Source of the DNA: Niastella sp.
Lineage (GTDB): Bacteria; Bacteroidota; Bacteroidia; Chitinophagales; Chitinophagaceae
Assembly (NCBI GenBank): GCA_017744515.1
Contig: JAGIBF010000041.1
Span: forward strand, 1-64,000
Length of the DNA stretch: 64,000 nt
Direction of reading: 5' to 3'
Shown here: positions 51,937 to 58,942 of the stretch, one piece after another
Layout: the number at the start of each line of letters is the position of its first letter
Position numbering within the stretch: position 1 is the first letter of the stretch
The notes under the pieces: generated by a model
What the model was told of the DNA's origin: nothing
Database searches by the model: none
The model's input: the letters and a program-made list of their open reading frames with translations, nothing else
Program-made: the position numbers and the translations under genes

Positions 51937-52908
51937 ATGCCGCAAGACAAAAACCGCCAATTTCTTGAATTTGAGAAACCCATTAAAGAACTGTTCGATG
52001 ACATTGAAGGGCTGAAGCAGAAGCAAGAGAAGAGCAAGATTGACCTGAGCGACCCCATCAGAAAACTGGAAGAAAGGGTAATAGAGACCCGCAGGGCCAT
52101 TACCCAAAACCTGACCCCCTGGCAAAAAGTACAGCTGAGCCGCCACCCGGACCGCCCCTATACACTCAAATACATCGATAAACTTACCACTGATTTTGTA
52201 GAACTGTTTGGCGACCGTAATGTACGCGACGACAAAGCCATGGTAGGAGGCTTTGCCTCACTCGACGGCAAAACCGTCATGATCATCGGGCAGCAAAAAG
52301 GCATCAACACCAAAGCACGCCAGCTTCGCAACTTTGGAATGGCCAACCCCGAAGGCTATCGCAAGGCCCTGCGCCTGATGAAGCTGGCCGAGAAGTTCAA
52401 CAAACCAGTCATTACCTTAATAGATACACCCGGCGCCTACCCCGGCCTGGAAGCTGAAGAAAGAGGACAAGGCGAGGCCATTGCCCGCAACATCTATGAA
52501 ATGATGCGCCTCAAAGTACCGGTGATCTGCGTGGTGATCGGTGAGGGAGCATCAGGTGGAGCCCTGGGCATTGGTGTAGGCGACAAAGTATTCATGCTGG
52601 AAAACACCTGGTACACGGTGATCTCCCCCGAAAGTTGCAGCTCTATCCTATGGCGCAGCTGGGACCAGAAAGAAAAAGCTGCCGAGCAGTTGAAACTCAC
52701 ACCCGATTATATGCACCAGTTTGGTATCATCGACGAGATCATTCCGGAACCTGTAGGTGGCGCCCACTGGGATTATGCAGAAGCAGCCAATCTGCTGAAA
52801 CCCTACCTGATCAACACAATCAATGAGCTGAACCAGTTGACACCCGAACAACGCATACAAAAACGCATTGAGAAGTTCAGCAAGATGGGCTTCTATGATG
52901 AAGTATAA
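51937..52908 (+). CDS. accA: acetyl-CoA carboxylase carboxyltransferase subunit alpha
   Basis: A 323-residue cytoplasmic enzyme subunit for the first step of fatty acid synthesis; with AccD it transfers CO2 from biotin to acetyl-CoA to give malonyl-CoA. Start [20 protein letters not shown] is the usual AccA opening with a coiled-coil segment ([13 protein letters not shown]), followed by the crotonase-fold core with [25 protein letters not shown] (in parts: about residues 166-190), [16 protein letters not shown] and [21 protein letters not shown]. Length is typical. It stands alone, and a -7-like sequence (TATATTTTG) lies close before its start. The next gene, dapA, has its own promoter. Confidence 0.98.
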
Positions 52909-52984: not shown

Positions 52985-53016
52985 TTTGGGTGGAATACAT
53001 TTGCTGATTATTTTTG
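52985..53016 (+). promoter_or_regulatory. promoter of the dapA leader
   Basis: TTTG (52985-52988), 20 bases, TATTTTTG (53009-53016): both boxes match the Bacteroidota consensus exactly. Transcription should start near 53021-53023, just in front of the ATG of the leader frame (53025). A second possible -7 box, TACATTTG at 52996-53003, lies just upstream. Confidence 0.8.
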
Positions 53017-53024
53017 GACCCATC

Positions 53025-53087
53025 ATGCAAAACATAAAGAAGCATACAAAGCAAGTCAAGAAACACTCCACGTACGGGGAAGGTTAA
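53025..53087 (+). CDS. lysine-rich leader peptide of dapA
   Basis: A 20-codon frame, product MQNIKKHTKQ-VKKHSTYGEG, beginning 2-4 bases after the predicted start of transcription. Five of 20 codons are Lys (codons 5, 6, 9, 12, 13). The final four codons (TAC GGG GAA GGT, then TAA) form the 5' arm of a possible antiterminator with the terminator just before dapA. The next gene makes a committed step of lysine synthesis. Together this suggests a leader peptide that senses charged tRNA-Lys. No such leader for dapA in Bacteroidota is known to me. The peptide might instead be a small functional protein; conservation would decide. Confidence 0.6.
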   Translation: MQNIKKHTKQVKKHSTYGEG

Positions 53088-53147
53088 AGACAGATTTGTA
53101 TGTCTGAAATATATCGAAGCCTTCCCGTAGCGGGAAGGTTTTTTTTT
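53074..53147 (+). promoter_or_regulatory. probable attenuator of dapA
   Basis: ACGGGGAAGG (53074-53083), inside the last leader codons, is complementary to CCTTCCCGT (53120-53128) with one bulged G, so it can form an antiterminator that destroys the terminator hairpin. A small hairpin AGACA/TGTCT (53088-53092, 53101-53105) lies between. A ribosome at the leader stop codon would cover the first arm and let the terminator form; a ribosome held at an early Lys codon would leave it free. This is structural inference. Confidence 0.6.
53120..53147 (+). terminator. intrinsic terminator in the dapA leader
   Basis: CCTTCCCG (53120-53127) and CGGGAAGG (53131-53138) form a perfect 8-bp GC-rich stem with a TAG loop, followed by nine T residues. 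It lies only 46 bases before the dapA start and about 100 bases after the promoter, so it cannot be the normal end of accA alone; it is placed as a regulatory terminator. Confidence 0.92.
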
Positions 53148-53193
53148 GCAGCTATACCAATCACGACACCATCAATTTAAAACCAACAATAGA

Positions 53194-54075
53194 ATGTCGC
53201 TCAGGCAAACATTACAAGGCACAGGCGTAGCACTCGTTACCCCCTTCAAAACAAACACCCAGGTCGATTTCGATGCATTAGGCAAACTCATCGACTTCGT
53301 GATCAAGGGAGGCATAGAATACATCGTAACGCTGGGAACCACCGGCGAGACCCCTACCCTCAGCAAGGATGAAAAGAAGGACATCATACTATACACGTAT
53401 GAAAAGGTAAACGGCCGTGTACCTGTAGTAGTAGGCATTGGCGGCAATGACACACAAGAGCTATTGAAAGACCTGCAATACTTCCCGCTCGATAAAGCAA
53501 CAGCCGTACTGAGCGCCAGCCCCTATTACAACAAGCCATCACAGGAAGGCATCTTCCAGCACTATAAAATGCTGGCGGCAGCTTCCCCTAAACCAATATT
53601 ACTGTACAATGTACCGGGCCGCACAGGCAGGAACATGACTGCCGCCACAACCCTTCGCCTGGCCAATGAAGTACCGAACATCGCAGGTATCAAAGAAGCC
53701 AGCGGTGACATGGCACAATGCAGTCTGATACTCCGCGACCGCCCCGAAAACTTCCTGGTAGTAAGCGGCGATGATGCCCTGACCTTTGCTCAGACAACCA
53801 CTGGCATGGATGGCGTCATCAGCGTAGCAGCCAACGCATTCCCCCAACAATTTACCGATATGGTACGTAATAGCTTAAAGGCCGACCTGAAAGGAGCTAA
53901 GAAGCTAAACGATCAATTGATAGAAGCCTATGACCTGATGTTTGCAGAAAACAACCCGGCTGGCGTGAAAGCATTCTTAACCGAACTGGGACTCATTGAA
54001 AATAACCTGCGCCTGCCGATGACACCTTTGAGCGAAGGATTATACAAACAAGTAAAAACGTATTTGAAGAAATAA
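53194..54075 (+). CDS. dapA: 4-hydroxy-tetrahydrodipicolinate synthase
   Basis: A 293-residue cytoplasmic TIM-barrel enzyme that condenses pyruvate with aspartate semialdehyde in the lysine/diaminopimelate pathway. I chose ATG 53194 (MSLRQTLQGTGVALVTPF); an upstream in-frame start falls inside the leader terminator. Active-site features: GTTGETPTLS (about residues 48-57), Y111, Y138 in LLYNVPGRTGRN, and the Schiff-base lysine in AGIKEASGD (K167). Length typical. The gene is transcribed from its own promoter at 52985 through a leader with a Lys-rich peptide and terminator, which suggests control by lysine supply. REP units follow it. Confidence 0.98.
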   Translation: MSLRQTLQGTGVALVTPFKTNTQVDFDALGKLIDFVIKGGIEYIVTLGTTGETPTLSKDEKKDIILYTYEKVNGRVPVVVGIGGNDTQELLKDLQYFPLDKATAVLSASPYYNKPSQEGIFQHYKMLAAASPKPILLYNVPGRTGRNMTAATTLRLANEVPNIAGIKEASGDMAQCSLILRDRPENFLVVSGDDALTFAQTTTGMDGVISVAANAFPQQFTDMVRNSLKADLKGAKKLNDQLIEAYDLMFAENNPAGVKAFLTELGLIENNLRLPMTPLSEGLYKQVKTYLKK

Positions 54076-58728: not shown

Positions 58729-58810
58729 AGCAGTTTAAATAAAGGTCAAAGTGTGTTATAAAATAAGTAACCTTGAAGATAAGGAAATCAAAAATACAGA
58801 AGGCACAAAA

Positions 58811-58837
58811 AAACGCAGCTATTGCGTAGCTGCGTTT
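58811..58837 (-). terminator. terminator of the OmpH-like gene
   Basis: AAACGCAGCTA (58811-58821) pairs with TAGCTGCGTTT (58827-58837) over a 5-base loop. On the minus strand the stem is followed by seven T residues. It lies about 105 bases past the OmpH-like stop and 80 bases before the permease start. Confidence 0.9.
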
Positions 58838-58908
58838 ACCTATTTTAACGAATGCTAATCAGTTCTTAAATACTCTTCATTTTCTTGACTATCACTGCTT
58901 AATTCACG

Positions 58909-58942
58909 CCTTTTCAACCTGCCAACTCATCAACCTATCAAC
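58909..58942 (-). repeat. octamer tandem repeat, copy 2
   Basis: On the minus strand four units read GTTGATAG, GTTGATGA, GTTGGCAG, GTTGAAAA, then GG. It begins directly behind the OmpH-like stop codon, as copy 1 does behind the heptose kinase. Confidence 0.65.

Follow-up and report, generated by a model that had tools for sequence, protein, structure and literature searches.

A candidate ribosome-mediated lysine attenuator in front of dapA and its relatives before asd in Chitinophagaceae

We analysed the leader region in front of dapA in a 64,000-nt stretch of contig JAGIBF010000041.1 (hereafter the window) and propose that it is a ribosome-mediated transcription attenuator which measures charged tRNA-Lys and controls dapA, a reading to which we assign a probability of roughly 0.85. 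At the level of sequence, the leader frame, the conservation of its Lys codons, three covarying helices and the link to asd and dapA are evident. The combination of leader and terminator is more than a chance arrangement, as judged from the fold of the leader RNA (z = -4.9, with none of 200 shuffles folding as well) and from its conservation both in ten dapA genomes and across the family.

The element lies on the plus strand, downstream of a gene named accA by eye, which ends at 52908 on the same strand, and upstream of the putatively controlled dapA (53194–54075), assigned as 4-hydroxy-tetrahydrodipicolinate synthase by TIGR00674 above cut-off. A putative Bacteroidota-type promoter (52985–53016) is composed of TTTG (52985–52988), 20 nt and TATTTTTG (53009–53016). 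The leader frame MQNIKKHTKQVKKHSTYGEG (53025–53087) begins with an ATG at 53025, 8 nt past the -7 box, runs for 20 codons with Lys at codons 5, 6, 9, 12 and 13, and closes with TAA at 53085–53087. Between this frame and dapA an intrinsic terminator is present, whose hairpin is built from arm B' (CCTTCCCG, 53120–53127), a TAG loop and arm C (CGGGAAGG, 53131–53138), the latter forming the 3' half (53131–53147) together with nine T (53139–53147). The last leader codons provide arm B (GGGGAAGG, 53076–53083), which is complementary to CCTTCCC at 53120–53126 and would act as the 5' arm of an antiterminator, leaving B' common to antiterminator and terminator. A further helix pairs arm A (CATACAAA, 53043–53050, leader codons 7–9) with arm A' (TTTGTATG, 53095–53102) and encloses B in its loop. 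An earlier note on this DNA had described the TTTG-N20-TATTTTTG promoter, an ATG close to the expected start of transcription, the 20-codon leader with its five Lys positions, the GC-rich terminator with nine T before dapA and the complementarity of the leader end (53074–53083) to the terminator 5' arm (53120–53128). All of these are present as described, the transcription start itself being predicted, and the two-helix design of the note is right for antiterminator and terminator but missed the third helix, A:A'.

Conservation was assessed on 80 dapA loci from named genomes and on five congeneric genomes, among them that of the window; in the genus set, L005 duplicates L008, Paraflavitalea pollutisoli. 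Reading of the stretches upstream of dapA gave the same leader in ten genomes, again including the window, with Lys 6, 9 and 12, Thr 8 and Ser 15 identical in all ten and Lys 5 and 13 kept in seven, so that the Lys conservation which the earlier note had proposed to check is borne out most strictly at codons 6, 9 and 12. The leader is present at 6 of the 80 collected loci and absent at 74, and its named carriers in front of dapA belong to Paraflavitalea, Pseudobacter and Pseudoflavitalea. The dapA upstream regions of Niastella and Longitalea (L009–L013, L018, L019) are without the leader. By eye, these regions have a CACTCACTTG stretch in common. A covariance model, R1, trained on the ten dapA leaders only, recovered them from 84 sources at E ≤ 1.4e-23, the next match (3e-4) lying antisense to one of them. 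One weaker R1 match in the window (58806–58912, minus strand, E 0.014), before an amino acid permease gene, was rejected as a terminator-like hairpin after the upstream gene; positions 58811–58837 hold a strong hairpin, a candidate minus-strand terminator between an OmpH/Skp-like gene (named by eye) and the permease.

Across Chitinophagaceae, R1 matches 249 of 394 genomes and 82 of 101 genera at E ≤ 0.001, E-values of such models being rough. We took all places listed down to E 1.7e-7, which amounted to 127 distinct elements (130 fetched, three of them twice), five of which have neither ATG nor GTG at model position 1. According to tblastn, the gene downstream of these best-scoring places is asd in 111 cases and dapA in 15, with one contig end, placing a lysine-making gene behind 126 of the 127. 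The genome of the window itself holds both copies, one before dapA and one before asd. The latter (G000:C120:4442-4566, at 1443–1567 of L118) encodes MQKMMKHTKRTKKQPSNGEG, has Thr codons at positions 8 and 11 besides its Lys codons, and is followed by a gene identified as Asd by TIGR01296.

The three helices A:A', B:B' and B':C covary in the alignment. Unprompted, RNAalifold returned A:A' together with the terminator from the ten dapA leaders. For a larger comparison, 100 of 107 non-redundant elements were aligned, leaving out the five that lack ATG or GTG at the first model position as well as L216 and L217; all covariation counts from this set are counts of sequences, not of independent events. 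The helix A:A', between leader codons 7–9 and TTTGTATG, is paired in 89.8% of cells compared with at most 46% for versions slid against each other, and it shows 27 two-sided cells vs 5.5 in shuffles, though the number of its pairs with any two-sided change is not in excess (4 vs 3.4, reached in 235 of 500 shuffles), and pairing is lost in 16 and 30 of the 100 rows at its two inner pairs. Pairing reaches 92.8% for B:B', with 15 two-sided cells vs 6.3 shuffled and with slid controls of up to 79.8%, reached at slide +1, and 94.7% for the terminator B':C, with 32 vs 11. Since the alignment was fitted to a structure which holds A:A' and B':C but omits B:B', the B:B' count is the freer one, and it is this antiterminator pairing whose covariation had been put forward as a check. 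One genus has CCTTTCC in B', and several of its members show matching changes in both B and C.

The spacing of promoter and leader is conserved as well. In 110 of 127 elements the end of a -7 motif lies 5–10 nt upstream of the leader start (7–9 nt in 98), compared with 2% of letter shuffles, and among the 116 elements with a scanned -7 motif, 110 have a TTTG-like box at a spacing of 18–20. Because the motif ends this close to the frame, transcription probably begins a few bases before the leader ATG, which would leave no room for a Shine-Dalgarno site.

We propose a model in which, with transcription starting a few bases before the leader ATG, the ribosome would trail the polymerase and its position would decide which helix forms. 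With lysine plentiful, the ribosome would arrive at the stop codon and mask B, B':C could pair, and transcription would terminate before dapA. With lysine scarce, the ribosome would wait at Lys codon 9, 12 or 13, thereby breaking A:A' and leaving B free, which could then pair with B' before C is made and permit read-through into dapA. The stalled ribosome would spare B, as the distance of B from codon 13 roughly matches the forward reach of the ribosome. If the leader were not translated at all, A:A' would form first and hold B in its loop, again leading to termination. This places translation of the leader, a kinetic choice between the helices and a response to lysine among the things we infer.

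Folding of 100 RNAs cut before arm C, with the ribosome represented by a mask whose front edge was assumed to lie 13 nt from the first A-site nucleotide, yields the switch that the earlier note had predicted for masked leaders. B:B' exceeds a probability of 0.5 in 100 of 100 RNAs with the ribosome at Lys12 and in 96 with the ribosome at Lys13, compared with 0 of 100 with the ribosome at the stop codon. In these leaders, 10–16 nt separate the start of codon 13 from the start of B, and the stop codon falls anywhere from 6 nt upstream to 15 nt downstream of where B begins, so B is covered by a ribosome at the stop despite differing leader lengths. In RNAs ending after A', A:A' exceeds 0.5 in 96 of 100 (0.98 in the window) compared with 33 of 100 when the letters of A' are shuffled. 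When RNAs cut before arm C are folded without a ribosome, the equilibrium probability of B:B' is above 0.5 for 59 of 100; the window's values are 0.94 for B:B' and 0.0 for A:A'. For the full RNA of the window, A:A' plus terminator and the antiterminator are nearly equal in energy (-33.9 vs -32.9 kcal/mol), and in the full RNAs at equilibrium the terminator persists with the ribosome at Lys12 (mean 0.74; window 0.88) and at Lys13 (mean 0.77; window 1.0). With the terminator thus favoured after synthesis of C, stalled ribosome or not, the switch must be kinetic, which is how attenuators are generally held to work.

Within the leader, codons for the regulated amino acid appear to be under selection. 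Counting rows with letters, Lys occupies codons 6, 9, 12 and 13 in 74 of 78, 79 of 86, 81 of 85 and 73 of 80 asd rows, respectively, and in 13 of 13, 12 of 12, 13 of 13 and 9 of 13 dapA rows. The asd rows use both AAA and AAG at codons 6, 9, 12 and 13, and third codon positions are the most variable ones at codons 6, 8, 9, 11, 12 and 13 of the 87 asd rows. In the 13 dapA rows only AAG occurs at codons 9 and 12, so that selection there could act on the nucleotides alone; variation is too small to reveal a third-position signature at these two codons, and none is seen at codon 11. We compared codon content in 106 asd and 15 dapA leaders (ATG or GTG start, at least 12 residues) with dinucleotide shuffles, the sequences being related and the fractions therefore descriptive rather than probabilities. 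Lys makes up 0.272 of asd leaders (0.157 shuffled) and 0.245 of dapA leaders (0.145 shuffled). Thr stands at 0.129 vs 0.096 shuffled in asd and at 0.067 vs 0.075 in dapA leaders, and Met at 0.046 vs 0.015 and at 0.014 vs 0.008, so that both exceed the shuffles in asd leaders and neither does so clearly in dapA leaders. His is enriched in asd leaders (0.072 vs 0.041 shuffled), mostly at codon 7 in arm A and at codon 14, and Ile in dapA leaders (0.096 vs 0.060). At codon 11, the 87 asd rows have Thr in 53 cases, using all four of its codons, and Ile in 20, and the 13 dapA rows have Val in nine, Ser in three and one gap, leaving no Thr or Ile among 12. Thr 8 is kept in 11 of the 13 dapA rows, yet it lies inside arm A, and the same holds for His 7, which like Thr 8 is as conserved as Lys.

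In a rival reading, the leader peptide itself would arrest the ribosome. TnaC and SpeFL are arrest peptides on which such a sensor could be modelled, with free lysine or a related metabolite in the tunnel arresting the ribosome and the same helices transmitting the signal. The conserved core KHTKxTKK and the conserved helices would serve this mechanism equally well. Codons 10, 14, 16 and 17 vary much in asd rows, however, Lys is kept at four places, and the conserved positions other than Lys are located in an RNA arm (codons 7–9) or form pairs within the loop closed by A:A' (codon 15). If free lysine caused the arrest, induction by lysine would be expected, odd for a biosynthetic gene. The pattern of conservation favours codons over peptide residues, and we consider arrest by the nascent chain improbable compared with attenuation by charged tRNA-Lys.

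A structured, conserved leader in front of a lysine gene would likewise be compatible with a metabolite riboswitch or T-box of a form outside Rfam, to which we give very little weight. In the dapA leader region no Rfam family matches above threshold, the best sub-threshold hit being Phe_leader with 27.6 bits vs 55; the T-box has neither a match above threshold nor one at E ≤ 1, and the lysine riboswitch RF00168 has no match there. RF00168 is also absent from all of the 117 Chitinophagaceae genomes scanned, compared with matches in 4 of 14 control genomes, and the third-position variation of the asd rows points to a translated frame. Least probable of all is an ordinary terminator of accA next to a fortuitous small frame, with dapA expressed from elsewhere: accA, a by-eye assignment, does end on this strand at 52908 and the hairpin by itself is that of an ordinary intrinsic terminator, but promoter-like boxes stand between the two, conservation extends to the frame and two further helices, and at 111 of 127 places the element is found before asd.

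Beyond the family, a model R2 matches 39 of 395 Bacteroidia genomes. Of 28 R2 loci that were read, 4 are asd leaders of Chitinophagaceae, 14 precede asd in four other families (f22, f42, f29 and f38), 4 are by eye other leader attenuators and 6 are likely chance terminators. The asd leaders of the other families (L218, L222–L224, L226–L231, L233–L235, L241) are Lys-rich and often Met-rich with few Thr codons, and the codon mix of asd leaders may differ by lineage. Of the four other leader attenuators, L232 is by eye a His-rich leader before hisG and L244 a Thr/Ile-rich leader before aspartokinase; the remaining two are Cys-rich leaders with a terminator, in other Bacteroidia, before a cysteine synthase gene (L239, gene named by eye) and before a putative sulfite/nitrite reductase gene (L245, by eye). 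The six loci L236, L237, L238, L240, L242 and L243 look like chance terminators by eye and were set aside. In a wider scan of asd covering 58 further genomes (56 from 41 other families and two Chitinophagaceae), a terminator was found within 250 nt upstream of asd in eight and none was seen in 50, the scan being insensitive; the same insensitive scan returned no Lys-rich near-leaderless frame with a terminator from the 58 upstream stretches. Seven of those asd stretches were read by eye, and three of them (G436, G474 and G643) have Lys-containing leaders before the terminator. With these 58 genomes mostly without a leader and three of seven with one by eye, the element is not general in the class, and its true spread is uncertain.

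The attenuator interpretation of the earlier note is supported by these data, with two amendments, one of them the third helix A:A' described above. The other is that the element in front of dapA is not peculiar to this gene, since most copies read precede asd; this related and more widespread element went unmentioned in the note. The asd leaders also carry conserved Thr codons and an excess of Met codons. The best reading is that the dapA element is a relative of the more widespread asd element, which carries the added Thr and Met codons. Besides the main group of dapA leaders there are two further ones (L131; L199 and L209), and a tree of the 100 aligned elements, built on about 125 bases and not to be trusted in its deeper branches, places 10 of 13 dapA leaders in one group with a support of 0.64 and three apart.

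Other genes of the pathway were included in the comparison. The window's genome has a leader MAQQQHHIISSTSTVATTATTTSTITTTR about 193 nt upstream of thrA (L309, G000:C170), which starts with GTG, is rich in Thr and Ile and has no Lys; no clear terminator was seen after it. The Thr/Ile leader of thrA is present in the five genomes of the genus, and a frame of this kind was found at 11 of 14 thrA loci, picking the most Thr-rich upstream frame being biased towards Thr; 10 of 24 genomes gave no thrA match. No lysine leader was recognised upstream of lysA and dapB of the window's genome. A terminator-like hairpin lies immediately upstream of lysA; Lys-rich short frames upstream of this gene were rejected as falling within the apparent end of the preceding gene (by eye). 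The same genome also encodes a His-rich leader MNIFTHIHHHHHTYPSR (L250 position 784, G000:C150) with a near-leaderless start and a terminator. This leader sits about 800 nt upstream of hisG, apparently with the coding sequence of another gene in between (by eye).

With Thr/Ile codons at thrA, Lys, Thr and Met codons at asd and Lys codons at dapA, codon content follows the products that each enzyme feeds. Threonine and methionine are the other products that need Asd, and the asd leader may accordingly answer to several amino acids. We lean, by a modest degree, towards a picture in which the aspartate pathway is read by leader codons matching the products that each step feeds: Thr/Ile at thrA, Lys, Thr and Met at asd as a gauge of several products on a shared step, and Lys alone at dapA, whose leaders would be relatives of asd leaders, in up to four separate lineages, without Thr at codon 11 and with Lys kept.

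Leaders of this general kind are well established: thrL and the his, trp and phe leaders of Proteobacteria are attenuators (Thr_leader, His_leader, Trp_leader and Phe_leader in Rfam), and thrL reads two amino acids. The dapA element shares with them a short frame enriched in codons for the product, an antiterminator as the alternative to a terminator, and a biosynthetic gene downstream. The dapA and asd elements differ from them in their lysine codons, in asd and dapA as targets, in an ATG near the promoter, in A:A' enclosing B and, for the dapA region, in having no Rfam match above threshold. The lysine riboswitch RF00168 binds lysine directly and has no leader frame; the element resembles it as a putative RNA control of lysine genes and departs from it in possessing such a frame. 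The asd RNA motif of lactic acid bacteria sits before asd, and to our knowledge it has no leader peptide; it shares its position with the asd copies of the element, and the Rfam scan, which covered the dapA element, gave no match to it. Comparative attenuator surveys have reportedly been made by Vitreschak (2004) and Lopatovskaya (2010).

In the same phylum, signs of leader-peptide attenuation have been described upstream of amino acid operons in Flavobacterium psychrophilum, where conserved structured 5' elements include those of pheA and hisG (PMC9723704); its main text does not contain the word lysine, and its passage on these elements names no lysine, asd or dapA case. Signs of leader peptides in Bacteroidota are already in print elsewhere (PMC7366714). 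A 2005 survey of Actinobacteria assigns lysine to riboswitches and His, Thr and Phe to attenuators (PMC1262725). Lysine, asd and dapA go unmentioned in the main texts of a 2010 survey of premature terminators (PMC2965389) and of a 2016 paper on leader genes (PMC4833913). Among the titles and abstracts of the matches listed, in a search mostly outside subscription papers, no published lysine attenuator was recognised. The mechanism is of a known kind, and for its lysine specificity, its asd and dapA targets and its near-leaderless start no precedent in print was found among the matches listed.

If the reading is true, this would be the first ribosome-mediated lysine attenuator and a case in which codon changes within a conserved RNA switch have retuned its specificity. 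Lysine is a textbook case of riboswitch control, and a lysine attenuator widespread in the family would fill a gap for an amino acid otherwise assigned to riboswitches, suggesting a route of lysine sensing for a family without a detectable lysine riboswitch. It would further connect leader-peptide control with near-leaderless translation starts in Bacteroidota and would offer a natural experiment: along one pathway, the amino acids read by a single RNA switch would differ from step to step.
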